From: Bacteroidales bacterium
Lineage (GTDB): Bacteria > Bacteroidota > Bacteroidia > Bacteroidales > UBA932
Assembly (NCBI GenBank): GCA_017471965.1
Contig: JAFURF010000073.1
Coordinates: forward strand, 1 to 39,431
Length of the DNA: 39,431 nt
Direction of reading: 5' to 3'
Shown: one piece after another, positions 318 through 38,197 of the stretch
Layout of the letters: each line of letters starts with the position of its first letter
Numbering within the stretch: the first letter of the stretch is position 1
Made by a program: the position numbers and the translations under genes
The notes under the pieces: generated by a model
Told to the model about the DNA's origin: nothing
The model's database searches: none
Seen by the model: only the letters and a program-made list of their open reading frames with translations

Positions 318-417
318 ATACAGCGAAGGCTGTTTATTCCGACAACCCTCCCCGCTTGCGGGTCCCCTCCCTTTTCGGGAGCGAATGTCGTCTGAATAAA
401 CAGCCTTCGCTGTGTAT
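318..417 (+). repeat. Structured palindromic element, copy A (three-helix, variable arms)
   Basis: Long arms at 320-339 and 394-413 are perfectly complementary over 20 bp, with outer ATAC/GTAT ends. An inner helix pairs CGACA (340-344) with TGTCG (386-390). The enclosed core holds two small hairpins, CCCGC-TT-GCGGG and CTCCC-TTTTC-GGGAG. Copies at 4037-4139 and 38095-38197 share the core but have different arms. The element lies between the convergent efp and transposase genes, so a terminator role is possible, but there is no clear U-tract after the stem. Confidence 0.85.
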
Positions 418-515
418 GCATCTGGCAATCTTTCCACTGCTTTGCTCCTCCGATGCAACTCAGCCATTCAAAGGACTAACTGGTTTTCTATTTATCGACG
501 ATTTCGGTTTTTAAT

Positions 516-622
516 GCGACCCGGAAAATTTGAGCGTTTTTTCTGTTTCGGCGGCTATCTAACGGCCCTTTTGTTTAAAATACGGCCATGTCACGAAAAA
601 AACGCACTATTCTTCCGGGACA
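516..622. repeat. Long inverted REP pair (REPIN-like) at the 3' end of the transposase gene
   Basis: GCGACCCGGAAAATTTGAGCG at the left and an inverted, diverged copy ending CACTATTCTTCCGGGACA at 605-622 form imperfect arms (about 516-542 and 595-622) around a loop of about 50 nt. The right arm sequence recurs exactly at 3960-3977. The transposase stop codon (591-593) lies inside this element, so the last residues of the protein are encoded by the repeat. REP pairs next to RAYT genes are the known arrangement for this transposase family. Confidence 0.7.
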
Positions 623-1544
623 AGCCAGGAAAGCACCGCAGAAGTTGCGACTTCGGGAGAGAGTACTTGATATGCAGATGCCGCATAATGCTTTGAACAG
701 ACTCTGTCGGCAAGTCATAAACAGACCTGCATCCAGGACAATGCTCCGATATATAGTCATCAATCATTTGACATGTCGTAATATCAGAGACAGCATTATA
801 ATCCGCCTTGCCATGTTCAGCGACAAGCATTTCCTGAATCGTCTGCACATTGACTCCTTTTTCTATATCGTCGAGAGTCACGGGAATAGTCTCAGAAGAA
901 TCCTTCCGCTGCTCCTCCTCCCATTGCTTTCCGGAAAGACGATTCATATAATACAGGAAGGATCTTGGGGTTGCAAACAGATGTTCGACTTCCGAAACAT
1001 CTATGATATCGTCAGGGAACAGCATGCCTTTCACATCCATCCTATATCCAGACGGGATTTCACCACATGGTTCCGGAAGATAACGATACATATTTTTCCT
1101 CTCCAATGCCAACGGCAAAGTCTTGCCGAGAACCTTACGGAATATAGCATTCGCTGAAGTATAAGCATAGCCGAACGGGGTAGCCGATATACCATGGTGA
1201 AGAGGATTACGGAGCACATAAGCAATTGCAGTCAATATATGATGCAATCCCTCCAGTTCCAGGACAAAATAATTTCTTTCACCCAGACGGCCTCGACGAT
1301 GATATTTGGAATTAAAGTATCGGGTATACATGTATCGCAGAGTCTTCATGTATTTCTCCTGATCGTATGACCTGACGCATAGATGAATATGATTGGCCAT
1401 GACTGCAAATGCCAACACTATGGTTTCCGTCCTTAAGGCGGCGATACATATACAATTCACCATCCTAACATAATCTTCTTCTCTTCTGCACAACAGTCCA
1501 TGATTTCCTGCAGATAAACATAAGTGATACGTCTTTCTCATCAT
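591..1544 (-). CDS. REP-associated tyrosine transposase (RAYT, Y1/HUH family)
   Basis: This is a single-strand DNA transposase-like protein of the IS200/IS605-related Y1 superfamily (317 aa). The HUH metal-binding pair is visible as MANHIHLCV (His52, His54). The likely nucleophile is Tyr109 in AIAYVLRNPLHHG, where the family usually has Y-x-x-x-N-P. Residues 1-130 form the transposase domain. The rest, about 185 residues, is a C-terminal extension whose last 90 residues look helical and end in a possible helix-turn-helix (SLPKSQLLRCFPG). No second transposase gene or target duplication is visible, so it is probably a domesticated single-copy RAYT rather than an IS. REP-like repeats overlap its 3' end and recur elsewhere in the window. 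A second ATG lies at codon 2. It is more AT-rich than the housekeeping genes. Confidence 0.85.
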   Translation of the reverse strand: MMRKTYHLCLSAGNHGLLCRREEDYVRMVNCICIAALRTETIVLAFAVMANHIHLCVRSYDQEKYMKTLRYMYTRYFNSKYHRRGRLGERNYFVLELEGLHHILTAIAYVLRNPLHHGISATPFGYAYTSANAIFRKVLGKTLPLALERKNMYRYLPEPCGEIPSGYRMDVKGMLFPDDIIDVSEVEHLFATPRSFLYYMNRLSGKQWEEEQRKDSSETIPVTLDDIEKGVNVQTIQEMLVAEHGKADYNAVSDITTCQMIDDYISEHCPGCRSVYDLPTESVQSIMRHLHIKYSLPKSQLLRCFPGLSRKNSAFFS

Positions 1545-1723
1545 CTTTTTTTTGCATCCAATTTAAGGTCGCATTCCGAAAAACATGATAAGAAAAAGAA
1601 AAATGTGACGAAACACGCATTTATAGTGACCAGATTCCGGATGAAAAATAAATTTTAGCCAGACAAAAATAAATCTTTGCCCATCATTGGTCATAAAAAT
1701 GACAAAACATGGGGAATTTTAAG

Positions 1724-1731
1724 TATGTTTG
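1724..1731 (+). promoter_or_regulatory. Bacteroidota -7 box TATGTTTG
   Basis: This is an exact TAnnTTTG match. No good -33 TTTG is seen at the usual 19-21 nt upstream. A start a few bases downstream would produce the structured RNA at about 1738-1922. Confidence 0.55.
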
Positions 1732-1737
1732 CATAAG

Positions 1738-1922
1738 AAAATACATATTTTGGGCTTCGGGCTCTTATTCTCTCAACTGAAAACCGCCAATTTGAAGAGT
1801 ACGAGAATAAGTCGCGAGGGTTCATACCTGTCTATGGGTGTGAACTATTCGTGCTTATCTGTACTCATGGCGCTTGGCGGTGCCTCAGTTGAGGATAACT
1901 AACGAATAGTTCCATCCTTTTT
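1738..1922 (+). ncRNA. Rod-like structured RNA candidate (6S-like in shape, or a leader of the HTH gene)
   Basis: No coding sequence explains 1545-1923. Nested complementary segments form one long rod: 1772-1780 with 1885-1893, 1783-1790 with 1874-1881, 1797-1802 with 1861-1866, 1804-1811 with 1854-1860 (one bulge), and 1820-1828 with 1837-1845. It has a -7 box upstream and a run of six T at 1917-1922, giving about 185 nt, which is close to 6S RNA in size and shape. In an alternative fold, 1842-1851 pairs perfectly with 1903-1912 (10 bp), which would dismantle the terminal hairpin. The next ATG follows the T run directly, so it could instead be a regulatory leader. I see nothing else in 1545-1723. 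Confidence 0.5.
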
Positions 1923-1923
1923 T

Positions 1924-2163
1924 ATGGTACACATAGGAAGAATCATCAAGGAAGTACTGGAAAGACAGGAAAGGACACCAGCCTGGCTTGCAAGAAAGAT
2001 CAACTGCGAACGTCCTAACATATATTATATATTTCAGCAGAAATCAATCAATACAGATCTTCTGATGAGAATTTCCTGTGCTTTGGAGCATGATTTTTTC
2101 AAGTATTATTCAGAAAAGGTATCTCATTCAAAAAGCGTAAAAAATCCTGACGGAACAGTATAA
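1924..2163 (+). CDS. Small Cro/C1-type HTH protein
   Basis: A 79-aa protein. Residues 4-60 look like a compact helix-turn-helix: RIIKEVLERQERTPAWLARK, then the recognition-helix region ERPNIYYIFQQKSIN, then LLMRISCALEHDFF. Short proteins with this plan are common in Bacteroidales. Presumably it binds DNA, but the target is unknown. No Shine-Dalgarno is visible. The ATG sits immediately after a run of six T that ends a highly structured region, so expression may depend on read-through of that structure, or the true start may be a later codon. The C-terminal 15 residues are polar and probably disordered. Confidence 0.6.
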   Translation: MVHIGRIIKEVLERQERTPAWLARKINCERPNIYYIFQQKSINTDLLMRISCALEHDFFKYYSEKVSHSKSVKNPDGTV

Positions 2164-2205
2164 TCTTTATTCGCCACTAAGAGACACGATCATGCGGTTA
2201 ATCAA

Positions 2206-2213
2206 TACCTTTG
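2206..2213 (+). promoter_or_regulatory. Bacteroidota -7 box TACCTTTG
   Basis: This is a TAnnTTTG match 37 bp before the lipoprotein start at 2250. No convincing -33 element is visible. It probably drives both tandem paralogues. Confidence 0.45.
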
Positions 2214-2249
2214 TTTTCTGAAATTCAGATTAACCATTTCATAAACGCC

Positions 2250-3041
2250 ATGAAGAAAATATTATTATTTACATCTATGATGCTTCTTGCGTCATGCGCA
2301 ACTTTGTTTACTGGCAGTAAGTCGAAAGTACAACTGGATGGAAACACAAACAGGACACCTGTCGACATCACTATTGACGGGCAACGTTACGAACAGGTCA
2401 TTCTACCTACAAAAGTAAAAGTAAAAAAAGGTTTCAAAGAAAGTAACCTTAAAGCCACAGCGCTTGGATATGAACCATATGAGACTACTATAGGCAAAAA
2501 GTTCAATGCTATTTCTATACTGAACCTTGGTAATCCTGTTGCATGGGGAATCGATGCAGCAACCGGAGCCATGATGACAACTGACAGTAAATATTATTAT
2601 CTGGAGATGGTCAGATTAGGAGAAGAAAACAATAGCAGCAGTCATAATGTAAAGAACTACGTAGAAGACCCGACTATTCCTCAAGGGGCCGCAGAAGATA
2701 GAGTCACAAGAGACAATCCCGGAGAAAGCGAACTTGAACGTACCATCATCAGATGGTATTTTGACTCTGCGCCAAGAGGAGCCAGGGTATTCTGGAGAGT
2801 CATTTCGAGCATTCCAGCCGAAGTAAAGAACACCAACGAACTCTATCTCGGTCCGACACCGTTTGAAGAGACAAGGTCGTTCAATATCCTCGGTCTGACT
2901 TATGCAAACTCACGCGACGTGCAGATCGAGATCAAGGTAACAAAGAACGGCTACATGGATCAGGTGAAGAGGTTCAATGTACGCCAGGCCATCGATCAGC
3001 AGGAAATCAGTTCTTTCTTTGAACTCGTACCTGAAGAATAA
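2250..3041 (+). CDS. PEGA-like lipoprotein, first of two tandem paralogues
   Basis: A 263-aa predicted lipoprotein. The signal peptide MKKILLFTSMMLLAS is followed by lipobox Cys16. I chose the ATG at 2250 because it starts the signal peptide; a frame extension to 2211 has no sensible start. The mature N-terminus (CATLFTGSKSKVQLDG, then TPVDITIDG) resembles the PEGA-type small beta domains of Bacteroidota envelope proteins. A short hydrophobic stretch, about residues 90-115 (LNLGNPVAWGIDAATGAMM), follows. Residues from about 138 to the end form a second domain that is almost identical to the C-terminal half of the next gene. Function is unknown. The following gene starts 7 bp downstream, so the two are probably co-transcribed. 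Confidence 0.75.
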   Translation: MKKILLFTSMMLLASCATLFTGSKSKVQLDGNTNRTPVDITIDGQRYEQVILPTKVKVKKGFKESNLKATALGYEPYETTIGKKFNAISILNLGNPVAWGIDAATGAMMTTDSKYYYLEMVRLGEENNSSSHNVKNYVEDPTIPQGAAEDRVTRDNPGESELERTIIRWYFDSAPRGARVFWRVISSIPAEVKNTNELYLGPTPFEETRSFNILGLTYANSRDVQIEIKVTKNGYMDQVKRFNVRQAIDQQEISSFFELVPEE

Positions 3042-3048
3042 CTAAATC

Positions 3049-3852
3049 ATGAAACAGTCATTTATAATACTATGCATCGCATGCTTATTTCTTTCATCTG
3101 CAAATGTTCATGCAAGAAAAAGCGGCAACGAACCAACGAAATCTGTAGAAATACAATTGAATTCTCACCCGACCGGTGCTTCTGTCTATTATAAAGGTCA
3201 GTTGATATGTACATCAACGCCTGCCATTGTAAAAATACCTGTTGAATATAAAATAGCGAGGTTAGGCGGCATAGAGGTTGACCCTATGGTATTTACATTT
3301 GTCCTGGACGGGTATGAAATGGCAGAAGAAACTATCAGCGGCGAATTCATACCTGTACCATACAAAGTTGACTATAGTGAATATGGTTACCGCTATAAGA
3401 TGAGAGCCATATATTCTGTAGATAAAAATGTAATGCATTTCTTTAAACAGGGTAATGACAAAAACGTCCATTCAAAAGACCCGACTATTCCTCAAGAAGC
3501 CGCAGAAGATAGGGTCACAAGAGACAATCCCGGAGAAAGCGAACTTGAACGTACCATCATCAGATGGTATTTTGACTCTGCCCCTCGCGGATCTCGCGTA
3601 TTCTGGAGAGTGATCTCAAGTGTACCGGCAGAGGTCAAAAACACCAATGAATCATATCTCGGTCCGACACCGTTTGAAGAGACAAGGTCGTTCAACATTC
3701 TCGGGCTGACTTATGCAAACTCGCGCGACGTGCAGATCGAGATCAAGGTAACAAAGAACGGCTACATGGATCAGGTGAAGAGGTTCAATGTACGCCAGGC
3801 CATCGATCAGCAGGAAATCAGTTCTTTCTTCGAACTCGTACCGGCAGAATAA
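3049..3852 (+). CDS. Secreted PEGA-like protein, second tandem paralogue
   Basis: A 267-aa protein with a signal peptide ending near SSANVHA-RK. Unlike its neighbour it has no lipobox Cys, so it is probably periplasmic. Residues about 30-115 contain a PEGA-like segment (VEIQLNSHPTGASVYYKGQ) that differs from the neighbour's N-terminal domain. From about residue 143 (KDPTIPQEAAEDRVTRDNPG) to the end it matches the upstream gene with only scattered changes. DNA identity is very high at both ends of this shared block and clearly lower in the middle (about 3580-3660), a mosaic pattern. Function is unknown. A shared domain on one lipidated and one soluble protein suggests paired envelope roles, which is inference. 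Confidence 0.75.
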   Translation: MKQSFIILCIACLFLSSANVHARKSGNEPTKSVEIQLNSHPTGASVYYKGQLICTSTPAIVKIPVEYKIARLGGIEVDPMVFTFVLDGYEMAEETISGEFIPVPYKVDYSEYGYRYKMRAIYSVDKNVMHFFKQGNDKNVHSKDPTIPQEAAEDRVTRDNPGESELERTIIRWYFDSAPRGSRVFWRVISSVPAEVKNTNESYLGPTPFEETRSFNILGLTYANSRDVQIEIKVTKNGYMDQVKRFNVRQAIDQQEISSFFELVPAE

Positions 3853-3868
3853 CATAATAACACGTCTG

Positions 3869-3977
3869 ACGCGACCCGGAAGAATCGCACTGATTTTCCG
3901 GGTCGCGTTATCATTTTACGGCTTTTGATGTGATTCGGCACTGCGACCCGGAAAAAATACACTATTCTTCCGGGACA
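3869..3977. repeat. REP doublet: perfect hairpin plus imperfect hairpin, 72-bp spacing
   Basis: The first unit pairs 3869-3881 with 3896-3908 (13 bp, extended inside by AATC/GATT). The second unit runs 3943-3977, starts with the same GCGACCCGG and ends CTTCCGGGACA. The starts of the two units are exactly 72 bp apart. The spacer contains TTACGGCTTTTG. A doublet with the same 72-bp spacing and a similar spacer word occurs, inverted, at 22262-22370. It lies in a convergent gap and could also terminate transcription on both strands. Confidence 0.8.
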
Positions 3978-4036
3978 GTTGGATTGCCAATCTGATAGAT
4001 GGCAGAGGCTTCCTGATTAGGCAATCCCAGACACCG

Positions 4037-4139
4037 ATACAGACAGCGGCCTGCTGATTATGAACGACATTGGCTCCCGAAAAGGGAGGGGACCCGTAAG
4101 CGGGGAGGATCGTCGGAATCAGCAGGCCGTTGTCTGTAT
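4037..4139 (-). repeat. Structured palindromic element, copy B
   Basis: Arms 4037-4059 and 4117-4139 pair over 23 bp with one G-T pair. The inner core, read on minus, carries the CCTCCCC, CGCTTACG and GGGTCCCCTCCC blocks and the CTCCC-TTTTC-GGGAG hairpin found in copy A. The arms are otherwise unlike those of copies A and C except for the outer ATACA/TGTAT. It lies between convergent genes and ends 8 bp from the lptB stop codon. Confidence 0.85.
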
Positions 4140-4147
4140 TACTCTAC

Positions 4148-4978
4148 CTATTCTTCAGGAGAGGATGCCGCGGCATCATGCTCAGCCTGAGTGTTGATGC
4201 GCTGAGGACCTCCGGCTTCTGCGCGCTTGAAGGCTGCAGAACGCTTCAGGACGAAGTTGGATCCCAGATACTTGGTACGTACCTCATCGTCTGCCGCCAA
4301 GGCCTCCGGAGTACCGCTCTGTAGGATGGATCCTTCATAGAGAAGGTAGGCACGGTCGATGATGGCAAGTGTCTCACCTACATTATGATCGGTGATGATC
4401 ACACCGATATTCTTGTACTTGAGTTTCGCTATGATGTACTGGATATCCTCGACAGCGATAGGGTCGACTCCGGCAAAAGGTTCGTCAAGAAGAATGAACT
4501 TAGGGTCGATGGCAAGCGCGCGGGCTATCTCGCAACGGCGACGCTCTCCTCCTGAAAGCTGGATACCCTTGCTCTTGCGTACCTTGTGGAGGTTGAACTC
4601 GTCAAGAAGGTCTTCCAGACGCTGCTTCCTCTCCTCCTTTGTAAACTGCTTGGACATCTCCATGACTGACATGATGTTGTCCTCAACGGTCATATGCCTG
4701 AACACAGATGCCTCCTGGGCAAGATATCCGACACCTTTCTGGGCCCTCTTGAACATAGGGAGCCCCGTAATCTCCTCATCATCCAGAAAGATCCTGCCTG
4801 CATTCGGAACAATCAGACCTGTGATCATATAGAAACTTGTAGTCTTTCCGGCACCGTTCGGACCGAGAAAGCCGACAATCTCTCCCTGGCTCACTTCCAT
4901 TGACACTCCCTTGACCACAGTCCTCGGGCCGTATTTCTTAACGAGATTTTCGCAGCGTAACTTCATCTTTGTATTCAT
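4148..4978 (-). CDS. lptB: LPS export ABC transporter ATP-binding protein LptB
   Basis: LptB is the cytoplasmic ATPase that, with LptF and LptG, extracts lipopolysaccharide from the inner membrane and drives it along the Lpt bridge. In this 276-aa protein the Walker A GPNGAGKTT is near residue 39, followed by the Q-loop, the signature LSGGERRR (about 142-149), Walker B FILLDEPFAG and the switch His in ITDHNVGE. The core matches the family's usual 240 residues. About 35 extra C-terminal residues (KRSAAFKRAEAGG, then an acidic end) form a charged tail. An ATG four codons later (MKLRC) is an alternative start. It lies 24 bp after dnaX on the same strand, with a short CCGGC-TCT-GCCGG hairpin at 4983-4995 in the gap. 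LptF and LptG are not in the window. Confidence 0.92.
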   Translation of the reverse strand: MNTKMKLRCENLVKKYGPRTVVKGVSMEVSQGEIVGFLGPNGAGKTTSFYMITGLIVPNAGRIFLDDEEITGLPMFKRAQKGVGYLAQEASVFRHMTVEDNIMSVMEMSKQFTKEERKQRLEDLLDEFNLHKVRKSKGIQLSGGERRRCEIARALAIDPKFILLDEPFAGVDPIAVEDIQYIIAKLKYKNIGVIITDHNVGETLAIIDRAYLLYEGSILQSGTPEALAADDEVRTKYLGSNFVLKRSAAFKRAEAGGPQRINTQAEHDAAASSPEE

Positions 4979-5002
4979 TGCACCGGCTCTGCCGGCTGAT
5001 TT

Positions 5003-6712
5003 CTATTTAATGTCCAGTTCGAGGGCCTTGACAAGTTCCCTCACCTCTTCCTTTTCCTTCATAAGGACTTCCGCCTGATCTCCCGGCATATATATCTTCG
5101 GTTGCGACGGAGTGTCATCCGGCTGGACTGCAACCCTCAGGTAGATCTTCATCGAACCTGCGGCCTTACGATAGTTGCCTTCCAGTTCATGCAGGAGTTT
5201 TGACTCCACCCAGTCCTTCTGGGCATCGTTGACAACTCGGAATGTCACAGTCTTGAATCCGTCTGCCTCCGTTATGTCCAGAGTCGTAGTGGACAGCATG
5301 GAAGCAAGACGAGGCTTGTCACCATACATCTTGGCCAGTTCCGGCCACTTTTCTCTGAGGACATCATCGGACGGTGCGGTATCTTCCGCTGCCTGCACAG
5401 GGGCTGCAGCCTTTGGCTCTTCCATCATCGACTTCAGAGACATCGATGCACGTGCCGCGCGCGTACGGCGCTCGCGGGATGCCTCAGACACCTGTTGAGT
5501 CTCAGAAACGGGCTGCACTGACTGTGCAACTGGCTGTGACACAGGAGTCTCTGTCCTGGAAACAGGTGCAGGAGTCTGCCTGGCAACTGGCGCCGGCTTC
5601 TGGATATGAACCTCGGAAGTTCCGTTGATGAAACTGAGTTTCATAAGGGCGAACTCTATATGCAGACGTGGATTGACACTGGCCCTGTAACCTGATTCGC
5701 ACTGGGTTGTTATGGCGAGAGCGTCATACAGGAACTGAAGGCCACATTTCTGAGCCTGTTCCTGATATCTTACCTTCAACGACTGCGGCAGTTCAAGAAG
5801 AGCCTCCAGTCCGCCGCTCTTGCACACCACCAGGTCACGAAGGTGTGAAGAAAGGGCCGCCACAAAATGCAAGGCGTTGAAACCTTTTGTCAGCACCTCG
5901 TCAAAGGTCAGCATGGCAGAGGAGTAGTCTCCTGCAAGGAAATTGTCCACCAGAGAGAAACTGTACTCATAATCAAGGACATTCAGATTGCGCAGAACAT
6001 CCTGATACTGAACATCCGTACCGCAGAACGCCACGGTCTGGTCAAAGATGGTCAGGGCATCACGCATCGCTCCGTCAGCCTTGTGTGCGATCACATGAAG
6101 GGATTCATCATCAATCGTGACCCCTTCGCTGGATGCAACCATTCGCAGGTTCTTCACGATGTTCTCTACCGTAATTCGGTTGAAGTCATATGTCTGACAC
6201 CTTGAAAGGATGGTCGGAAGTATCTTATGCTTTTCAGTAGTAGCGAGGATGAAGATGGCATGTGCTGGCGGTTCCTCAAGAGTCTTCAGGAAAGCGTTGA
6301 ATGCAGACTGCGACAGCATATGCACCTCATCTATGATATATACGCTGTATCTTCCCACCTGAGGCGGCACACGCACCTGATCCATCAGGGTCTTGATGTC
6401 CTCGACACCGTTGTTCGACGCCGCATCAAGTTCATGGATGCAGTATGAACGGCCTTCGGCAAACGACTGGCAAGACTCACACTTTCCGCATGGCTCCATA
6501 TCCTCGGAAGGATTGGAGCAGTTGATCATCTTCGCGAAGATCCTGGCTGTCGTGGTCTTGCCGACACCGCGAGGTCCGCAGAAAAGATATGCATGTGCCA
6601 ACTGACCCCTGAGAATTGAGTTCTTAAGGGTCTGTGCGATATTGTCCTGACCTATCAGGGTGCCGAACGAGTCCGGCCTGTACTTTCTTGCTGATACTAT
6701 ATACTGACTCAT
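5003..6712 (-). CDS. dnaX: DNA polymerase III subunit gamma/tau
   Basis: This is the clamp-loader ATPase of the replicative polymerase (569 aa). Visible motifs are Walker A GPRGVGKTTTAR (about residue 46), four zinc-binding cysteines (C-NPSEDMEP-CGKC-ESC), the Walker B region VYIIDEVHMLS, sensor 1 ATTEKHKILPTILSRCQ, and the collar domain to about residue 370. A Pro/Val/Gln-rich linker, about 375-450, joins a C-terminal domain of about 110 residues, probably the polymerase- or helicase-contacting part. I see no A-rich slippery heptamer for a programmed gamma frameshift. A minus-strand -7 box lies 22 bp upstream. The downstream neighbour is lptB. Confidence 0.95.
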   Translation of the reverse strand: MSQYIVSARKYRPDSFGTLIGQDNIAQTLKNSILRGQLAHAYLFCGPRGVGKTTTARIFAKMINCSNPSEDMEPCGKCESCQSFAEGRSYCIHELDAASNNGVEDIKTLMDQVRVPPQVGRYSVYIIDEVHMLSQSAFNAFLKTLEEPPAHAIFILATTEKHKILPTILSRCQTYDFNRITVENIVKNLRMVASSEGVTIDDESLHVIAHKADGAMRDALTIFDQTVAFCGTDVQYQDVLRNLNVLDYEYSFSLVDNFLAGDYSSAMLTFDEVLTKGFNALHFVAALSSHLRDLVVCKSGGLEALLELPQSLKVRYQEQAQKCGLQFLYDALAITTQCESGYRASVNPRLHIEFALMKLSFINGTSEVHIQKPAPVARQTPAPVSRTETPVSQPVAQSVQPVSETQQVSEASRERRTRAARASMSLKSMMEEPKAAAPVQAAEDTAPSDDVLREKWPELAKMYGDKPRLASMLSTTTLDITEADGFKTVTFRVVNDAQKDWVESKLLHELEGNYRKAAGSMKIYLRVAVQPDDTPSQPKIYMPGDQAEVLMKEKEEVRELVKALELDIK

Positions 6713-13823: not shown

Positions 13824-14669
13824 CTAAAGACAGAGACGAAGACCGAGGGTGCCGTAGCGGTAGTCCGGAGACAAGTCGAAACGGAAGGAGACACGGCAGT
13901 ACCCCGCCAGGCTACCCCAACTGCCGCCACGGAGGACGCGAAGGGACCCGCTGTCCGGACCTTTCGGATTGGTTTGAGCAGAAGAGATATATTCCCCATA
14001 CCAGTCACTGCACCATTCCCATACATTACCGCTCATATCATAGATTCCAAGTTCATTGGGTGACTTTGTGCCGACATTGTGTGTAGTATAACCGCTATTG
14101 TCATCGTACCATGCCACATCATCGATTGCGCGGCTGCCACTGTACTTATAGCCACTGCTGTTGCCTCCCCTGGCAGCGAACTCCCATTCCGCCTCTGTCG
14201 GAAGACGGAAGTTCTGTCCGGTCAGTGAGTTCAACTTACGGATGAACTCCTGACAGTCGTCCCATGAAACATCATCCACCGGCCTGCGCGCTCCCGTGAA
14301 ATTGCTCGGGTTGCTGCCCATCACTGCCTCCCAAAGATCCTGGGTCACTTCATACTTTCCTATATGGTAACTGCTCAAGGTAACCTGATGAACAGGTTCC
14401 TCATTCGACGACGCATCACTGCCCTGCTCCGAAGTGGCTCCCATATCGAAAGTGCCACCCTCAACAAATACCATAGGATACTCGACCCCCTTGATATTCA
14501 GAACAAAGTCTTTTCCGTCAGTCTGGCAGTCCGGCTTTCCTATCAGTTTACAGACATAATCATAAAGGGCATCAAACCATCTGACCTTGTGCTGCTCCAG
14601 ATAGGCACACATCGCCTCAACGACCTTCTGGTCCTTGCTCGAATAACTTATGAATACGTTGCATTTCAT
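13824..14669 (-). CDS. TIR-remnant / formylglycine-generating-enzyme-like (SUMF1, CLec fold) protein
   Basis: A 281-aa protein. Residues 1-30 (MKCNVFISYSSKDQ, then VVEAMCAYLEQHK) match the start of a TIR domain, but the sequence passes directly into the second domain near residue 45, so the TIR fold and its catalytic Glu region are missing. Residues about 60-281 form an FGE-sulfatase domain: VFVEGGTFDMGA, then YHIGKYEVTQDLWEAVMG, then FRLPTEAEWEFAARGG, then YDMSGNVWEWCSDWYG, then RVLRGGSW. The final 25 residues (CRVSFRFDLSPDYRYGTLG, LRL) sit where diversity-generating retroelement targets vary, and several codons there end in C. No reverse transcriptase is in the window. The start at 14669 is chosen because it begins the TIR-like strand. 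A 9-bp hairpin lies in the leader. Confidence 0.75.
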   Translation of the reverse strand: MKCNVFISYSSKDQKVVEAMCAYLEQHKVRWFDALYDYVCKLIGKPDCQTDGKDFVLNIKGVEYPMVFVEGGTFDMGATSEQGSDASSNEEPVHQVTLSSYHIGKYEVTQDLWEAVMGSNPSNFTGARRPVDDVSWDDCQEFIRKLNSLTGQNFRLPTEAEWEFAARGGNSSGYKYSGSRAIDDVAWYDDNSGYTTHNVGTKSPNELGIYDMSGNVWEWCSDWYGEYISSAQTNPKGPDSGSLRVLRGGSWGSLAGYCRVSFRFDLSPDYRYGTLGLRLCL

Positions 14670-14689
14670 ATAGCAACCCATCGTTTTCG

Positions 14690-14713
14690 TGATACACAAA
14701 ACCCTGTGTATCA
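14690..14713 (-). promoter_or_regulatory. Short perfect hairpin in the leader of the TIR/FGE gene
   Basis: TGATACACA (14690-14698) pairs with TGTGTATCA (14705-14713) around a 6-nt loop, 20 bp before the start codon. It could be an operator half-site pair or an RNA hairpin. No T-run follows on minus. Confidence 0.4.
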
Positions 14714-14800
14714 ACACATTATATTACTTACCCTGCCTTCCTCGACATGCAGGACAATCAATCATCTTATTAACAGTCAGTAAGTTACGCATCATGCAAA

Positions 14801-16216
14801 CTAGACATGTTCCACTTCAGGATGCAGTTCGACATCGAACTTCGACTTGACGGAGGCAATGATACGCTTCTCAAGGCCGACGATCTCTTCAGGATAGGCC
14901 TCGCCGGTATAATTGACGATAACCAGCGGCTGTTTCTCCCACACCGCAGCCCCTCCGCTCCTGCGCCCCTTCCATCCGCACTGCTCTATCATCCACGCCG
15001 CCGGTACCTTGACGCTATAATCTCCCCGACCGGCAGATGTGTCATTTGTGTGGAGGAGACATTTTCCCACCCCCGGGTAGGGGGAGGGGCCCACAGAGTG
15101 GGAGGGGGTCTCCGGAACACATTGGCACTCTGGCATAATAATATAATGCGGCACATTGTAATCTGCGCCATGCTCCGCCTTCGCAGCAGCCTCTATACGG
15201 GCAAAATGCTCGGCAGACACCACCGGATTCTTGAAGAAACTTCCTGCACTTCCCACAACAGACGGCTCCGGAAGCTTCTCCTTCCTGATCCTGATTATCA
15301 CCTTCCTGATCAACGCCGGCGTGATAGATTTCTCCACTCGCTGAGTTCGGTCGAAATTACAGTCAGAAGACGTGTCAGAATGGGTAGGAGTGCCCTCTAT
15401 CGTCGGCTTTACCTGCTGAGCGGCATCAGCGGAAACCGTGGCCGACCGTGGCCTCATGAACGGGAGGGGCCCATCGCCCCGCGATGGGAGGGATTCAGTT
15501 TCCGTGATGCTGTCAGCAGGCAAAGCCGACAAGACCGCATCACGAAGATGCCCGTAATCAAGCCGTGGCCTCGGCTCACGCGACAGTGCAAACACCACAT
15601 GAGTCACGACATACCTGCCCTTGACCTCCGGATTCTTGAATATCGAATCACGATAGCCGTATCCGCACTCCTCGACACTGAAACTCACAAACTCTTCCTC
15701 AACAGTATCGTAGCAATAAACCCTATGGATCACATCCTTGACCTCAACGCCATAGGCACCGATATTCTGCACAGCAGAAGCACCCACCTCTCCAGGAATA
15801 TACGAAAGGTTCTCCACACCCCACAGTCCTTCCTTCGCCGCCCAGTCGCAGAAATCATCGAAGACCACTCCCGCACCTACTGACACCAGCACAACCTCCG
15901 GTGCGTTTTCATGTCCTGAATCCGAAGAATCGACATCTTCGGACGACGTGCCATTTGTGCGGAAGTGGCATTTACTATGGCACTCGTCCAATATTTCAAT
16001 GAAGTTGATCTTCGAATGCAGGACAGTACCCTTGAAATCATCGGTAAACAGAAGATTGCTTCCCCCGCCGATATGAAGCACCGGACGGGCCAGTTCTGCA
16101 AACTCGATATCCACAAGATCCGCCACGGAATCATACTCCATGAAACACCTCGCCTTCACCTTCATTCCGAAGGTGTTCATCTTCGTCAGATCCTTATAGT
16201 ACTCCGTCTTTATCAT
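14801..16216 (-). CDS. murB: UDP-N-acetylenolpyruvoylglucosamine reductase with three in-frame insertions
   Basis: MurB is the flavoenzyme that reduces the MurA product to UDP-MurNAc. The FAD domain is visible (MNTFGMKVKA, then LHIGGGSNLLF, then LSYIPGEVGASAVQNIGAYGVEVK), with substrate residues YGYRDS (Arg189), the catalytic Ser326 in GSAGSFFKNP, and a C-terminal Glu467 in HPEVEHV. At 471 aa it is about 130 residues longer than usual Bacteroidales MurB. The excess lies in three blocks of low-complexity, Ser/Pro/Thr-rich sequence: about residues 78-106, 231-298 and 361-400. Each block coincides with palindromic repeat DNA, while all catalytic motifs remain in frame. The blocks fall between conserved elements, probably in surface loops. 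The reading frame is intact, so the enzyme is likely functional. Confidence 0.9.
   Translation of the reverse strand: MIKTEYYKDLTKMNTFGMKVKARCFMEYDSVADLVDIEFAELARPVLHIGGGSNLLFTDDFKGTVLHSKINFIEILDECHSKCHFRTNGTSSEDVDSSDSGHENAPEVVLVSVGAGVVFDDFCDWAAKEGLWGVENLSYIPGEVGASAVQNIGAYGVEVKDVIHRVYCYDTVEEEFVSFSVEECGYGYRDSIFKNPEVKGRYVVTHVVFALSREPRPRLDYGHLRDAVLSALPADSITETESLPSRGDGPLPFMRPRSATVSADAAQQVKPTIEGTPTHSDTSSDCNFDRTQRVEKSITPALIRKVIIRIRKEKLPEPSVVGSAGSFFKNPVVSAEHFARIEAAAKAEHGADYNVPHYIIMPECQCVPETPSHSVGPSPYPGVGKCLLHTNDTSAGRGDYSVKVPAAWMIEQCGWKGRRSGGAAVWEKQPLVIVNYTGEAYPEEIVGLEKRIIASVKSKFDVELHPEVEHV
15031..15134 (-). repeat. Structured palindromic element inside murB, copy E
   Basis: Read on minus, the core has the CCCTCCC-ACTCTGT-GGGCCCCTCCC plan of intergenic copy C, followed by a CCCCC...GGGGG hairpin. 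Imperfect inverted arms lie at about 15032-15060 and 15108-15134. It encodes murB residues about 361-396. The left arm (15039-15067) also resembles 15947-15975 in the same gene. Confidence 0.7.
15412..15520 (-). repeat. Structured palindromic element inside murB, copy D
   Basis: Inverted arms 15412-15437 and 15497-15520 share CCTGCTGA, GCATCA and GGAAAC blocks in complement. The enclosed core on minus reads CCCTCCC, then an 8-bp helix CCCATCGC/GCGATGGG, then CCCCTCCC, the same plan as copies A-C. The size (109 bp) is close to the intergenic copies. It encodes murB residues about 233-269. Confidence 0.75.
15921..15989 (-). repeat. Double hairpin insertion inside murB (third insertion)
   Basis: TCCGAAGA/TCTTCGGA (15921-15943) is followed by a 13-bp stem with one bulge, 15941-15954 with 15977-15989. 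The stem contains GTGCCAT/ATGGCAC, which is related to the hairpin at 16230-16267. It encodes murB residues about 78-99. Confidence 0.6.
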
Positions 16217-22261: not shown

Positions 22262-22370
22262 GCGAACCGGAAAGATTCTATCATTCTTCCGACTCACAAC
22301 AGGTTTTCTTACAGACAACAGCCGTAACAACAAGCGACCCGGAAAAATCTCACGATTTTTCCGGGTCGCT
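22262..22370. repeat. REP doublet: degenerate unit plus perfect 17-bp hairpin, 72-bp spacing
   Basis: 22333-22349 pairs perfectly with 22354-22370 around the loop TCAC. A degenerate unit with GCGAACCGGAA...TTCTTCCG starts at 22262, exactly 72 bp before the second unit. In the inverted direction the order (perfect then imperfect) and the spacer word TTACGGCT match the doublet at 3869-3977. It lies between convergent genes and probably acts as a terminator in both directions. Confidence 0.8.
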
Positions 22371-32058: not shown

Positions 32059-32061
32059 TTC

Positions 32062-32092
32062 AGGAAAGATCCTTCGCGTCGCTCAGAATGAC
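32062..32092. repeat. Fragment of a common interspersed repeat (GATCCTTCGCG...CTCAGAATGACG)
   Basis: The string GATCCTTCGCGTCGCTCAG with the following AATGACG resembles a short repeat I recall as frequent in many bacterial genomes. Only one copy is visible in this window, so this is recollection rather than proof. Confidence 0.4.
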
Positions 32093-32093
32093 G

Positions 32094-32633: not shown

Positions 32634-32772
32634 AAACAGTTAGAATAGTTCTTTGGTTAAAAATGGCTCCCAGGGGTACTGGAAGCGATTTCAAAGGTAA
32701 TAATTTTTTGCCGTTCGTCAATCATGCCACAGAAATAAACACAAATAAATTCATATTTTAAATAAATTTCAT

Positions 32773-32780
32773 TAATTTTG
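32773..32780 (+). promoter_or_regulatory. Bacteroidota -7 box TAATTTTG
   Basis: This exact TAnnTTTG match ends 9 bp before the ATG at 32790, which predicts an mRNA with almost no 5' leader. Confidence 0.55.
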
Positions 32781-32789
32781 GTTTTCGGT

Positions 32790-33404
32790 ATGGAGACTGT
32801 TCAGATCCAAGATTCATATAAGACCATCGCAGCCCCGTCAAAGGGTCTGTTCAAGGACAATGGAAGCCGTTTCATTGCCCATGCATATCCCGTTGAAACA
32901 GAAGATGAAGTAAAGGAAATCGTTGCATCCCTGAAAAAGGAATACTACGATGCAAGACATCATGTATACGCATATCGTCTTGGATATAAAGGAGATAAAT
33001 TCCGTGCAAACGATGACGGAGAGCCATCGGGTTCTTCTGGAAGGCCCGTACTGGGTCAGATTGATTCGAACGGTCTGAGTGATATCCTCGTTGTGGTGGT
33101 CAGGTATTTCGGAGGCATCAAGTTAGGCATACCCGGCCTGATCAGGGCATACAAGACTTCGACGGCCGATGCGATAGAGAACGCACAGATAGTAGAAAAG
33201 ATCGCATCCAGAATGTATCGGGTACATTTCGGATACATGAGCATGAACAGCGTGATGAAGGTATTCAAGGACATGGGCCTGGAGCAGAAGAACCAGAGGT
33301 TCGACATGGAGTGCAGCATGGACACAAGCGTGCGGCTTTCGCTTGTCGACACTTTCCTGGAAAAGATGGCAGACGTGGAAGGTTGCCGCACAGAAGAATT
33401 ATAG
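32790..33404 (+). CDS. IMPACT/YigZ family protein
   Basis: A 204-aa protein. The N-terminal domain carries the family signature: [19 protein letters not shown], then [12 protein letters not shown], then [17 protein letters not shown], then [23 protein letters not shown]-terminal ferredoxin-like domain of about 65 residues ([20 protein letters not shown]) follows. Bacterial members are linked to translation or nucleotide-related roles but have no settled activity. I chose the ATG at 32790. It is the first gene of the pyrBI run and lies 16 bp before pyrB. Confidence 0.9.
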
Positions 33405-33420
33405 GAACAACGTTAGCAAT

Positions 33421-34329
33421 ATGAACAACAAAAGTTTGATTTCGATTTGGGATTTCAGCAAGGAAGAAATCCTGCATGTTCTGGAAACAGCCAAGGAGTT
33501 CGAGCAGAACAGAGTCCAGAACTTCCTGGAAGGCAAGGTAATAGCGAGCCTTTTCTTTGAACCCTCCACCAGGACCAGGCTCAGTTTCGAGACTGCAGTC
33601 AATCGTCTTGGTGCGAAAGTCATCGGATTCTCGGATGCCACCAACACCAGTCAGAGCAAGGGCGAGACACTGAAAGACACCATCAAGATGGTCAACAACT
33701 ACGTAGACATGATCATCATGAGGCATCCTCTCGAAGGCAGTTCGCGATATGCATCAGAAGTAGCAACGGTGCCGGTGGTCAATGCAGGAGACGGAGCGAA
33801 CCAGCATCCCTCGCAGACCCTTCTGGACCTATATTCCATACTGCAGACTCAAGGCACACTGGAAGGCCTGACCATCAACATGGTAGGAGACCTGAAGTAC
33901 GGACGTACGACCCACTCGCTGCTTCAGGCCATGTCCCATTTCCATCCCAAGTTCATATTTACTGCACCAAAGGAACTGGCAATGCCGCAGGAATACAAGA
34001 GTTTCCTCGACAACAAGGGCATAGAATACATAGAGACGACCTCCCTCGAAGAACATCTCAACGACTGCGACATCCTCTACATGACCCGTGTCCAGCAGGA
34101 AAGGTTCACTGACCCTATGGAATATGAAAGAGTCAAGGATGTCTATACTCTTGACGCATCGATGCTCGGCGGAGTTCGGCAGAACATGAAGATACTGCAC
34201 CCTCTCCCTCGCGTCACCGAGATCAATCAGGACGTTGACGAGACCCCGTATGCATATTATTTCAAACAGGCCGAGAACGGCCTCTATGTCCGTATGGCCA
34301 TTATTTCTTACCTCTTAGGATACAGATAA
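33421..34329 (+). CDS. pyrB: Aspartate carbamoyltransferase, catalytic subunit
   Basis: ATCase condenses carbamoyl phosphate and aspartate in pyrimidine synthesis. The subunit (302 aa) has the carbamoyl-phosphate site [12 protein letters not shown], then [14 protein letters not shown], then [12 protein letters not shown], and the aspartate-site segments [22 protein letters not shown] and [11 protein letters not shown]. All catalytic positions are kept. I chose the ATG at 33421, which gives the family's usual N-terminus. pyrI follows 2 bp later, so this is the holoenzyme type regulated by nucleotides. No pyrimidine-sensing attenuator is visible upstream. Confidence 0.96.
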
Positions 34330-34331
34330 TC

Positions 34332-34784
34332 ATGAACAGAAAAGAATTGGTAGTCAGCGCATTGGAGAATGGTACCGTGCTGGACCATATACCCGCTGAA
34401 AATGTATATAAAGCACTGGACATCCTTAATCTCAAAGGAATCGAGAGTCAGATCACCATCGGCATCAACCTCGCCAGCAAACTGTATGGCAAAAAGGGAA
34501 TAATAAAGATCGCCGACAAGTTCTTCGAGGATGACGAACTGAACAAACTTGCTTTGATCGCTCCTAAGGCCACAGTCAATGTGATCCGTGATTTCAAGGT
34601 CGTTGAAAAGAAGACTCTTGTCATGCCTAAGGAAGTCATCGGAATTGCAAAATGCAGAAATCCTAAGTGCGTTACCAATCACCAGCCGATCACAACAAGG
34701 TTCGCCACAATCGACAACGGTAACGAAATATCACTTTTATGCCACTTTTGCGAAAAAATCACAAAGACAAAACACGTCTTTTAA
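34332..34784 (+). CDS. pyrI: Aspartate carbamoyltransferase, regulatory subunit
   Basis: PyrI binds ATP, CTP and UTP and transmits allosteric control to PyrB. In this 150-aa protein the nucleotide-binding domain covers about residues 1-98 (ENGTVLDHIPAENVYKALDI, then ITIGINLASKLYGKKGIIK). The zinc domain at the end holds the four cysteines CRNPKC and CHFC, which contact PyrB. It starts 2 bp after pyrB, so the two are co-translated. Confidence 0.95.
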   Translation: MNRKELVVSALENGTVLDHIPAENVYKALDILNLKGIESQITIGINLASKLYGKKGIIKIADKFFEDDELNKLALIAPKATVNVIRDFKVVEKKTLVMPKEVIGIAKCRNPKCVTNHQPITTRFATIDNGNEISLLCHFCEKITKTKHVF

Positions 34785-34794
34785 AATAAATCAT

Positions 34795-34802
34795 TATCTT
34801 TA
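34795..34802 (+). promoter_or_regulatory. Probable -7 box TATCTTTA for serC
   Basis: TAnnTTTG with the final G replaced by A, 41 bp before the serC start. It suggests that serC-serA-DUF1015 is transcribed separately from pyrBI. Confidence 0.35.
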
Positions 34803-34843
34803 ACCCCTATAAAGATTATAAATTTAAATAACACTATACCAAT

Positions 34844-35917
34844 ATGAAAACAGTTCACAACTTCAATGCAGGTCCATGCGCCCTGCCACAGCAGGCAGTC
34901 GACAGAGCGATCGACGCACTCAAGGATTTCGCCGGAACAGGTATGCCGGTCATTTGCGTATCCCACAGAAGCAAGGAGTGGAGCGCAGTCATGGACGAAT
35001 GCCGTGCTCTCTGGAAGGAACTTCTCAACATTCCTGACACTCATGAAGTGCTCTTCCTCGGTGGCGGTGCAAGCATGGGATTCCTCTACACTGCAATGAA
35101 CTTCCTTGAGAACAAGGCAGGATATCTCGAAACAGGCGTATGGGCAAAGAAAGCCCTGAAAGAGGCCAAGGGCCTTGGAAACGCCTATGCCGTAGCATCA
35201 TCTGCAGAAACTACATTCAATTATATACCAAAGGGTTACGAAATCCCTGCAGACCTCGACTATTTCCACATCACCACCAACAACACCATCTACGGTACTG
35301 AGATTCACGAGGACATCGACTGTCCGGTTCCACTCATCGCTGACATGTCGTCAGACATCATGAGCCGACCTGTAGACGTAAGCAAATATGCAATGATCTA
35401 TGGTGGTGCGCAGAAGAATGTTGGTCCTGCAGGTGTGACTTTCTTCATCGTGAAGAAGGATCTTCTCGGCAAGGTGAGCCGTTACATCCCGACAATGCTC
35501 AACCTCCAGACACATATCGACGGCGGTTCGATGTTCAACACACCTCCTGTATTCCCGATCTTCGTGATGACCGAAACCCTCAGATGGGTAAAGGAACTCG
35601 GCGGAGTGGAGGCAATCTACAAGATCAACAAGGAGAAGGCAGCCCTTCTTTATGACGAAATCGACCGCAACTCCCTCTTCGTAGGAACAGCAGCCAAGGA
35701 AGACCGTTCCATCATGAACGTATGCTTCGTCATGGCTCCAGGCTACGAGGCTCTTCAGGATGAGTTCATGGCTTTCGCAAAGGAGCGCGGCATGGTCGGC
35801 ATCAAGGGACATAGGTCTGTAGGAGGATTCCGTGCTTCCATCTACAACGCTTGCCCTGTTGAAAGCGTTCAGGCACTCGTTGACTGCATGAAGGAATTTG
35901 AAGCATTGAAGAAATAA
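34844..35917 (+). CDS. serC: Phosphoserine aminotransferase
   Basis: SerC transaminates 3-phosphohydroxypyruvate with glutamate, the second step of serine synthesis, and also acts in PLP synthesis. Length is 357 aa. The N-terminus [12 protein letters not shown] is diagnostic. [13 protein letters not shown] and [11 protein letters not shown] are phosphate and PLP contacts. The PLP lysine lies in [13 protein letters not shown], and [17 protein letters not shown] and [15 protein letters not shown] close the active site. It starts a serine operon: serA begins 11 bp later. Confidence 0.96.
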
Positions 35918-35928
35918 CCGCATTGAAC

Positions 35929-36840
35929 ATGAAAATACTCGTCGCAACCGAAAAACCGTTTGCAGGAGCAGCTGTAAACGGTATAAGAGAAATCGTCGAA
36001 GGTGCAGGACACGAACTTGCCCTTCTCGAGAAATACACTGAAAAAGAGCAGTTGCTCGCTGCCGTGGCAGACGCTGACGCCCTTATCGTACGCTCTGACA
36101 AGGTCACTGCAGAGGTTGTGGAGGCTGCAAAGCAACTCAAGATCGTCGTACGTGCCGGTGCAGGTTACGACAATGTCGACCTTAATGCATGCACAGCAAA
36201 ACATGTAGTGGTCGAAAATACTCCGGGCCAGAACTCAAATGCTGTTGCAGAACTCGCCATCGGACTGATGATATACATGTCACGCAATCAGTTCACGCCT
36301 GGAACAGGCTGCGAACTCAGCGACAAGACCATCGGTATCCAGGGCTTCGGAAACATCGGACAACTCGTAGCGAAGAAGGCTGTCGCCCTTGGCATGAATG
36401 TACTCATCTTCACAAACGAGATCAAGGAAAAGCATAACAGATGGAACACGACTTTCTCTCTCCAGAAACTATACAGCACCTGTGACTTCATTTCCGTAAA
36501 CATCCCTGCGACTCCTTTCACAAAGAACAGCGTGAATTACGACCTCATCTCGGCAATGCCTAAGGGAGGATGTATCATCAACACAGCGCGAAAGGAGATC
36601 ATCTGCGAGGACGGACTTGAACAGGCACTCGCAGAAAGGCCGGACCTCAAGTATGCCACGGACATAGCACCGGTCAGATACGCAGAAATGAAAGAGAAGT
36701 TCGGCAAGCAGATCTACGCTACCCCTAAGAAACAGGGCGCAGAGACAGCCGAGGCAAACATGAATGCAGGCCTCGCTGCTGCTAATCAGATCGTCAATTA
36801 TTTCGCTACCGGCTGCACTAAATTCCAGGTCAACAAATAG
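35929..36840 (+). CDS. serA: D-3-phosphoglycerate dehydrogenase (short form, catalytic His replaced)
   Basis: SerA oxidises 3-phosphoglycerate, the first step of serine synthesis. In this 303-aa short form with no ACT domain, the NAD motif is GFGNIG (139-144), VRAGAGYDNVDL and NTPGQNSNAVAEL are substrate-side motifs, and Arg221 in INTARKE is kept. Where the family usually has TPHxG with the catalytic His, this protein has TPKKQGAETAEA (Lys267). I recall the same substitution in other Bacteroidales SerA proteins, so it is probably a lineage form and not a defect. It lies between serC and a DUF1015 gene 4 bp downstream. Confidence 0.9.
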   Translation: MKILVATEKPFAGAAVNGIREIVEGAGHELALLEKYTEKEQLLAAVADADALIVRSDKVTAEVVEAAKQLKIVVRAGAGYDNVDLNACTAKHVVVENTPGQNSNAVAELAIGLMIYMSRNQFTPGTGCELSDKTIGIQGFGNIGQLVAKKAVALGMNVLIFTNEIKEKHNRWNTTFSLQKLYSTCDFISVNIPATPFTKNSVNYDLISAMPKGGCIINTARKEIICEDGLEQALAERPDLKYATDIAPVRYAEMKEKFGKQIYATPKKQGAETAEANMNAGLAAANQIVNYFATGCTKFQVNK

Positions 36841-36844
36841 TATT

Positions 36845-38083
36845 ATGGTAAGAATCAAACCGTTCGCGGCAGTAAGACCGCCAAAAGCATATGTAGAGGA
36901 AGTCGCAGCAAGGCCTTATGACGTCCTCAATTCAGCAGAAGCAAAGGCAGAGGCAGGCGAAAAATCACTCCTGCACATCACAAAGCCTGAAATCGATTTC
37001 GACCCGATAATCGACGAGCATACTCAGCCTGCCTACGATAAGGCAGTCGAGAACTTCAAGGCATGGCAGCAGAAGGGATGGCTCGTTCAGGATGAGAAGC
37101 CATACTACTACGTATATGCCCAGACCATGGATGGACGTACCCAGTACGGACTCGTAGTCTGCGCACATACCGACGACTATGCTGAAGGAAAGATCAAGAA
37201 GCACGAACTCACCCGCAAGGACAAGGAAGAGGACCGCATGATACATGTACGCATCCAGAACGCAAACATCGAACCTGTATTCTTCTCTTATCCTGACCAT
37301 GAGGAAATAAACGCCATCGTTGCACGATACATAGCGCAGGAGCCTGAATACGATTTCGTTGCAGAAGACGGCTTCGGCCACCATTTCTGGGTGATTTCAG
37401 AGCAGGCGGACATCGACCGCATCACTGAGATCTTCGCAGAGATTCCTGCATTCTATGTTGCTGACGGACACCACCGTACAGCAGCCGCAGCCCTCGTGGG
37501 AGCGGAAAAGAGAAGTCAGAATCCGAATCACACAGGCGAAGAGGAATACAACTGGTTCATGACTGTAGCCTTCCCTGACAGCCAACTGAAGATCATCGAC
37601 TACAACCGCGTAGTTAAGGATCTCAACGGTCTGACAGAGGAACAGTTACTTGAGGCTCTGGCAGAGGACTTCGATGTGAAGGAGGAAGGAACTGAAATAT
37701 ACAAGCCCGGAAGACTCCACGAGTTCTCCATGTATCTTGCAGGCAAGTGGTATTCACTCGTTGCAAAAGAAGGCCGTTACGACGACAATGACCCTATCGG
37801 TGTGCTCGACGTGACGATCCTCTCGAACCTCGTTCTTGACAAGATTCTTGACATAAAGGACCTCCGCACATCAAAGCGCATCGACTTCGTGGGCGGAATC
37901 CGTGGTCTTGGAGAACTTTCGCGCAGAGTTGACAGCGGCGAGATGAAGGTTGCATTCGCCTTGTATCCTGTTTCGATGAAGCAGCTGGTGGACATTGCAG
38001 ACTCCGGCAACATCATGCCTCCTAAGACAACATGGTTCGAGCCGAAACTCCGTAGCGGACTTGCTATCCATAAACTGAGTTAA
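36845..38083 (+). CDS. DUF1015 family protein of the serine operon
   Basis: A 412-aa cytoplasmic protein. Family motifs visible: IKPFAAVRPP and ARPYDVL at the N-terminus, RTQYGLVVCAHTDDY, then FYVADGHHRTAAAALVG, then FMTVAFPDSQLKIIDYNRVV. The GHHRTAAA motif could bind phosphate or a nucleotide. The family has no settled activity, but the serC-serA-DUF1015 order recurs in Bacteroidota, so a role in serine or phosphoserine metabolism is a reasonable inference. No serB phosphatase is in the window. I chose the ATG at 36845; the frame is open further upstream inside serA. It is followed by structured repeat copy C. Confidence 0.85.
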   Translation: MVRIKPFAAVRPPKAYVEEVAARPYDVLNSAEAKAEAGEKSLLHITKPEIDFDPIIDEHTQPAYDKAVENFKAWQQKGWLVQDEKPYYYVYAQTMDGRTQYGLVVCAHTDDYAEGKIKKHELTRKDKEEDRMIHVRIQNANIEPVFFSYPDHEEINAIVARYIAQEPEYDFVAEDGFGHHFWVISEQADIDRITEIFAEIPAFYVADGHHRTAAAALVGAEKRSQNPNHTGEEEYNWFMTVAFPDSQLKIIDYNRVVKDLNGLTEEQLLEALAEDFDVKEEGTEIYKPGRLHEFSMYLAGKWYSLVAKEGRYDDNDPIGVLDVTILSNLVLDKILDIKDLRTSKRIDFVGGIRGLGELSRRVDSGEMKVAFALYPVSMKQLVDIADSGNIMPPKTTWFEPKLRSGLAIHKLS

Positions 38084-38094
38084 CTTTTGTCAAT

Positions 38095-38197
38095 ATACAT
38101 TCCGGTGGCTATTATCACCGGCGGTCCTTCCCACTACGTGGGCCCCTTCCCTTTTCGGGAGCCAATGCCGCCTATGATAATAGCCACCGGAATGTAT
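38095..38197 (+). repeat. Structured palindromic element, copy C
   Basis: Arms 38095-38117 and 38175-38197 are perfectly complementary over 23 bp. An inner GGCGG/CCGCC helix and the hairpins CCCAC-TAC-GTGGG and TTCCC-TTTTC-GGGAG form the core. Compared with copy A, the helices keep pairing while bases change. It lies between convergent genes, 11 bp after the DUF1015 stop codon. Confidence 0.85.

Follow-up and report, generated by a model that had tools for sequence, protein, structure and literature searches.

The stretch of DNA analysed here (the window, all 39,431 nucleotides (nt) of contig JAFURF010000073.1 of a Bacteroidales bacterium) carries copies of a family of palindromes of about 100 nt, each made of a conserved core between two complementary arms. 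With moderate confidence, we suggest that these palindromes spread as whole units, arms together with core, and that they persist at convergent gene ends and in frame inside genes. Three class I palindromes had been described in a first-pass annotation of the sequence: element A (plus strand, about 315-418, with the P2-P3-P4 core at 341-392 and arms at about 315-340 and 393-418), element B (minus strand, 4037-4139, core 4063-4114) and element C (plus strand, 38095-38197, core 38120-38172). Their positions were confirmed, and their folds were far more stable than those of dinucleotide shuffles (z of -8.3 for A, -7.9 for B and -8.7 for C, each against 200 shuffles). The in-frame copies in genes, including a fourth palindrome of the window in murB, had not been seen by that annotation.

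The family is dispersed, with at least four classes in the window's genome. An exact 13-mer search of this genome detected six copies. The covariance-model search proposed by the first-pass annotation, run with a model of the core (R1), gave 21 matches. Six were the copies already detected, which scored 67-80 bits, and the other 15 scored 18-35 bits (E up to 0.26). These lower-scoring matches are not noise: they represent additional classes that keep the layout but have cores of their own (nine of class II including one partial duplicate, three of class III, two of class IV and one unclassified). Among relatives, R1 matched 13 of 61 genomes at E up to 0.01, all from the same genus and one only at E 0.003. 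In a sample of 398 genomes from the window's taxonomic family, which is probably the Cryptobacteroides group, 73 genomes in 7 of 25 genera were matched at E up to 1e-4; some of the 73 reached only about 1e-5 and may carry classes other than I. The hosts are gut and rumen Bacteroidales.

Rfam provided no relevant family for the whole window (gathering scores) or for element A (E up to 5), in agreement with the statement that no named family has such an architecture. Literature searches, largely without subscription papers, found no earlier description of the palindrome family; one of them also missed the Enterococcus efar repeats.

Core and arms of the palindromes

The core consists of a 6-base-pair (bp) helix P2, a hairpin P3 and a hairpin P4 (YTCCC-TTTTC-GGGAG) around a three-way junction; of the three short segments that join them, two are C-rich and one resembles CCAAT. 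In elements A, B and C, arms of 20-23 bp stand outside P2. The predicted minimum-energy fold of element A differs, GGGAG being paired with the other (first) CTCCC. The small helix noticed as changed on both sides is P3, with CCCAC/GTGGG in C and CCCGC/GCGGG in A. Covariation was analysed for 85 distinct cores from 95 matches, in an alignment fitted to R1 and hence biased toward the R1 structure. Standard pairs filled 98.4% of the pair cells in the real cores versus 86.5% in shuffles, 8 of the 16 core pairs were altered on both sides in some copies, and double-changed cells numbered 173 versus 46.9 in shuffles. The covariation score was 0.372 versus 0.144 shuffled, and 0.372 was reached by 0 of 500 shuffles. 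The aligned cores show a conserved three-way junction with covarying pairs.

Complementary arms were detected in 83 of 93 class I copies (score of at least 20, the value of the 99th percentile for pairing across copies), with a median length of 21 bp and without mismatch in 43 of the 83. Together with the core covariation, this agrees with the first-pass proposal that pairing is kept while sequence changes. Many copies with unrelated yet complementary arms had been expected as well; arms were alike between genomes in only 12/4169 comparisons (3/4000 when shuffled).

Within one genome, arms were alike in 15 of 26 pairs with near-identical cores versus 5 of 124 pairs with dissimilar cores. Because duplicates in several genomes share arms, arms can be inherited, and then diverge while pairing stays; what is conserved in them is mainly the pairing. 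The description of the arms as complementary within copies and unrelated among A, B and C holds, but its extension to the family in general does not, given these arm-sharing duplicates. For 56 pairs chosen for a similar inner arm, some of them chance or orthologous pairs and with inner identity inflated by the choice, identity went down to background at about 22 nt and pairing lasted to about 20-22 nt. By eye, the differences between the paralogues L207 and L209 are compensated pairs. In orthologous arms, likewise compared by eye, one-sided changes outnumber the few two-sided ones, and the total is too small to tell selection from template switching.

Placement between genes and copies inside genes

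Intergenic copies prefer convergent gene ends. Once nine orthologous duplicates and two partial copies (11 rows in all) had been dropped, the 82 remaining copies were placed: 45 between convergent genes, 20 between tandem genes, 0 between divergent genes, 12 inside open reading frames (ORFs) 700 nt or more in length, and 5 at edges. Background gene pairs of the same loci, called by a simple longest-ORF caller, were 13 convergent, 80 tandem and 31 divergent (Fisher p 1.6e-16). The median distance from core to stop codon was 38 nt on each side of the convergent copies, and in 19 of the 45 the arms fill the intergenic gap, since the stops are at most 60 nt away on both sides.

The location between convergent genes described for the three elements of the window was borne out. 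Element A lies between the C-terminal part of the EF-P gene (2-298, plus strand) and a Y1 transposase gene of RAYT type (591-1544, minus strand; 317 amino acids (aa), motif NHIHL), element B between an ORF with a weak PEGA match under the Pfam cut-off (3049-3852, plus strand) and an ABC transporter ATPase gene (4148-4978, minus strand), and element C between the genes for a DUF1015 protein (36764-38083, plus strand) and a Lipocalin_2 protein (38247-38777, minus strand). A 5S rRNA gene is found at the contig end (39336-39431, minus strand).

The murB gene of the window (14801-16216, minus strand; FAD_binding_4 and MurB_C domains) carries a class II palindrome in frame, at about 15031-15135 on the minus strand (ends by eye, core 15055-15113). 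Compared with solved MurB, the protein has about 26 extra aa after residue 67, about 62 after residue 227 and about 44 after residue 344, and the palindrome sits in the last of these inserts. A core-like stretch with a longer P3, CCCTCCCATCGCGGGGCGATGGGCCCCTCCC, was read directly at 15460-15494 (minus strand) in the 62-aa insert and is possibly a divergent further copy. The gene adjoining murB encodes a formylglycine-generating-type (FGE-sulfatase) protein (13824-14717, minus strand).

All five class IV copies in the examined loci were inside ORFs of at least 299 aa: miaA, hutI (twice), aroE and the gene of a PP-loop protein, in which the copy is ahead of the domain. The miaA copy of the window's genome adds 48 aa at a point where the solved protein has no residues between the two that match, although the first aligned segment of this comparison is short and, taken by itself, weak; both arms are within this 48-aa insertion. 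The inserted stretch of aroE (about 48 aa) is long enough for both arms. One of the hutI copies is from the window's genome. Class I copies were detected in truB (about 63 extra aa), in an RluA-type gene (about 88 extra aa versus the solved protein and about 84 more than its G249 orthologue), in a SpoU-type gene (about 80), in trmB as a C-terminal extension, and in Fe-S, CitG, NamZ and NTP-transferase genes; two further ORFs tested had no Pfam match. The inserts are often longer than the palindrome. No conserved encoded peptide was found, different frames and strands giving different peptides.

Two species share the position of the hutI copy, with opposite orientations and unrelated arms. Four-fold sites outside the insert were identical at 69 of 178 positions (39%), and the core was 92.7% identical over 55 nt. 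Because the core is read in opposite directions, it appears to be conserved as nucleic acid and not as peptide, the alternative being independent insertion at one site. The unrelated arms need no special mechanism here, because neutral divergence is saturated.

Orthologous sites and the way of spread

Comparison of orthologous sites shows that the core can invert between its arms. The core in G026 is inverted versus those in G432 and G461, with nearly the same arms and both flanks aligned (L204/L280 vs L254/L279), and a second inversion with both flanks aligned was detected in G249 versus G243 (L260 vs L259). L035/L036 was considered as a third inversion and set aside as weaker than the other two, with one flank only in common. 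The site L277:2102 is filled in G029 and cleanly empty in G386, with flank identities of 95.7 and 96.2%; this is the one empty site in a close relative of the kind that the first-pass annotation had suggested looking for. At this single clean empty site (G029 vs G386), no clear target-site duplication was found. In G409, the same site has the left arm alone, without core or right arm, which fits inverted copying of the flank and deletion between CGGG repeats equally.

Further orthologous sites were surveyed for 15 elements (36 sites, located through the gene on the left flank, the one on the right differing in some; L254 sites keeping one neighbour gene only were left out). A scripted test detected a core-like motif in 2 of the 36. 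Stems reached 10 bp or more in 26 of the 34 core-free sites and 14 bp or more in 13; among 60 control segments, mostly coding, the numbers were 9 and 0. One of these 34 sites, in L336 (G465) and orthologous to element L245, holds a different palindrome, GGTCCTCCCTTTAAGGGATCAGATACC in GC-rich arms, which the test missed. Elements also differ between orthologous sites: at the L241 site, the element of the neighbour genome G249 has different arms and a variant core, and at the L244 site, G409 holds an element of a different class. Separately, tandem cores 119 bp apart were seen in L227/L228 (G178 and G353), the second copy lacking complementary arms, and positions 1343-1440 of the L240 query (contig C26 of G359) belong to a further repeat that is multicopy in G359 and came up as additional matches to the flank.

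The simple long hairpins that relatives often carry at the same spots would be expected if the core inserted into the loops of existing terminator hairpins, as the first-pass annotation had supposed. This is largely refuted and now very improbable: only one of the 34 core-free sites shares an arm with the element, namely the half-palindrome of G409, and the MiaA and AroE inserts are both long enough for two arms, which that of MiaA indeed holds.

The same annotation had also supposed that flanking sequence is copied in inverted form at insertion: the core would land beside any sequence X, and repair or replication would copy X inverted to give X-core-X'. In one genome, the class IV copies L025 and L027 have identical cores and unrelated near-perfect arms; none of the 15 class I pairs of the window's genome share arms; G409 has its left arm without core or right arm; and template switching can create perfect hairpins (according to parts of PMC8794818). 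All of this fits such copying, but the arms shared by duplicates in several genomes and the two arms within the MiaA insertion speak against it, the G409 allele suits a deletion as well, and saturated divergence accounts for the hutI arms. We regard arms made at insertion as improbable.

A somewhat stronger contender, though still an unlikely one, is that the palindromes are not mobile and are structured RNA: bidirectional 3'-end elements (terminators or mRNA stabilisers) with a ligand- or protein-binding core and a neutral P1, inherited mainly vertically, with the gene copies as domesticated relics. The convergent-gene location, the simple hairpins at the same slots in relatives, and a conserved core with a variable closing stem, as in ordinary structured RNAs, would agree with this, as would a hutI core 92.7% identical despite four-fold sites at 39%. 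However, the core inverts and its orientation relative to tandem genes is random, arm-sharing duplicates and an empty site exist, and several copies are inside genes and read in either orientation.

The RAYT-type gene directly beside element A suggested non-autonomous elements moved, like REPs, by a RAYT/Y1 HUH transposase, and Bacteroidetes genes of subclass 2.6 are reportedly flanked by atypical secondary structures (in the portion of PMC6006769 that bears on this). The window gene scored 30 bits against NCBIfam REP_Tyr_transpos, under the cut-off of 80. Y1 matches were found in 36 of 73 element-bearing genomes (hand count) versus 190 of 398 sampled genomes, in a scan at E 1e-5 whose cut-off the window's own gene (6e-5) misses. 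In the vicinity of 20 RAYT-type loci, 12 of them from element-bearing genomes, no core was convincing, the one match being at E 0.63. RAYT/Y1 transposases as the general mobiliser found no support in these limited tests, which gave no association, and we consider this origin quite improbable. Another hairpin family, REP-like and with the sequence GCGACCCGGAA..TTCCGGGTCGC, is present around the RAYT-type gene and elsewhere in the window (518, 3873-3904, 3945-3974 and 22336-22367), and is possibly the cognate REP of that gene.

For spread as whole units, we propose that an agent would act in trans on the folded single strand of the core. Selection for a hairpin would keep the arms perfect, jointly with template switching during replication, which copies one arm onto the other. 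This renewal step is suggested because template switching is reported to generate perfect stems and to restore them (PMC8794818, in part) and because terminators undergo compensatory stem change (PMC5381666, likewise in part). Intergenic copies would be kept since they do the job of the hairpin that they replaced, which would be transcript end formation in both directions, and gene copies would survive when located in loops or linkers, as proposed for Rickettsia palindromes and REP genes.

A preference for one folded strand is possible and not strong. At the closing pairs of P2 and P4, 74 and 23 cores have a U.G wobble, as read on the CCTCCC strand, and none has C.A; the strength is limited because this bias is present at two pair positions only, the other 14 core pairs being equal for G.T (10) and A.C (12). 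No replication-strand bias was detected by local GC skew (79 copies, p 0.46).

Several observations weigh against spread as whole units or against parts of the scheme. The spread is read from genome comparison, and no candidate mobiliser was supported in the genomes and RAYT loci tested. Most compared genomes are draft assemblies, in which assembly error is possible at some palindromes. Some of the 15 arm-sharing pairs are neighbours and may be segmental duplicates, and 11 of the 26 near-identical pairs have no shared arms. For the core, there is the bias of the alignment toward R1, and the measure of further pair types was not above shuffles (205/500). The wobble bias is confined to two core pairs, and in the arms A.C (26) exceeds G.T (12). 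For the intergenic role, core orientation at tandem sites was random (9 same, 11 opposite), and T-tracts were weak, 4 of 38 convergent copies having four or more consecutive T at each exit, so that ordinary intrinsic termination is disfavoured.

Comparison with known systems

Protein-coding palindromes are best known from Rickettsia, and they are now found in housekeeping genes of gut and rumen Bacteroidales (murB, miaA, truB, aroE), with the junction alone conserved. The family offers a natural test of selection versus template switching in the origin and upkeep of long perfect hairpins, because related genomes show a single site as filled, empty, inverted or other-armed. Caution is needed with MurB, MiaA and HutI homologues in these draft genomes, which include inserts that are not protein domains.

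REP, BIME and RAYT-REPIN systems are likewise dispersed extragenic palindromes with in-frame gene copies. REPs are 20-40 bp (PMC3733652, in part) and also occur in frame in genes (as parts of PMC6006769 describe). They have a GT[AG]G foot, whereas here the foot is not enriched (within 6 nt of 5 of 166 arm ends versus 21 of 413 background stretches), the arms differ by copy and the limited tests showed no RAYT association, with one RAYT-type gene adjoining element A. Bidirectional intrinsic terminators also have stem pairs altered on both sides and a convergent-gene location; passages of PMC5381666 describe compensatory stem change and terminators common to convergent genes. A long stem between convergent genes is present in 45 of our 82 copies. 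Unlike such terminators, the palindromes have a junction core of 50-60 nt, duplicates, inversion, gene copies and weak T-tracts. The defining features of miniature inverted-repeat transposable elements (MITEs) are their terminal inverted repeats and the duplication of the target; in the palindromes the ends are the variable part, with no conserved terminal inverted repeats. SPRITE, BOX, ERIC and other MITE-like repeats are small and non-autonomous, some of them terminator-like (PMC10969869, in part).

Among the matches listed, the P3 hairpin and C-rich spacers recur in dispersed repeats of Azospirillum, Reyranella and Microbacterium (L055-L134), which have the same hairpin-and-spacer motif, CCTCCCRCTTCGYGGGTCCC(C)TCCC-like. 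Three spacer positions occur in two coupled states (C-T-C or T-C-T), the same two in Azospirillum and Reyranella as here. Coupling was observed in 46 of 48 cases of a title-chosen set outside Bacteroidales with one viral contig and in 27 of 28 loci picked without regard to title, both among the matches listed, and in 108 of 117 of a mostly Bacteroidales set that also includes those 28 loci. The Microbacterium repeats have locus-specific arms of about 18-20 bp in 4 of 5 loci read, as in the palindromes, and Azospirillum arms look more uniform than those of Bacteroidales. Viral contigs gave no exact class I or class IV core and one match to the Azospirillum-like motif. A plasmid search with element A gave no match, and one with the Azospirillum repeat gave 35 Azospirillum records. 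The likeness may reflect common origin, transfer or convergence.

A speculative extension, which we hold only tentatively, is that mobile three-way palindromes exist across phyla. The junction motif (CCTCCC - hairpin - CCCCTCCC - hairpin, with three coupled spacers) would be recognised by an enzyme on folded single-stranded DNA, whole palindromes would be moved to gene ends and into proteins as in-frame inserts, including those of essential genes, and template switching would renew the arms, leaving the element untraceable outside its core.

The original accounts of Rickettsia palindromic elements (RPE) are reportedly the Ogata papers of 2000 and 2002. Like the palindromes described here, RPE are dispersed palindromes of about 100-150 bp with in-frame insertion in unrelated protein genes. 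Small palindromes of several families, also in frame in unrelated genes, are described for RPE in part of PMC10969869. Unlike RPE, the Bacteroidales palindromes have variable arms and a conserved three-way-junction core, and are read in several frames and orientations without a conserved peptide. Taken together, the palindromes are closest in behaviour to the Rickettsia elements, a likeness of behaviour by which kinship of sequence is not implied.

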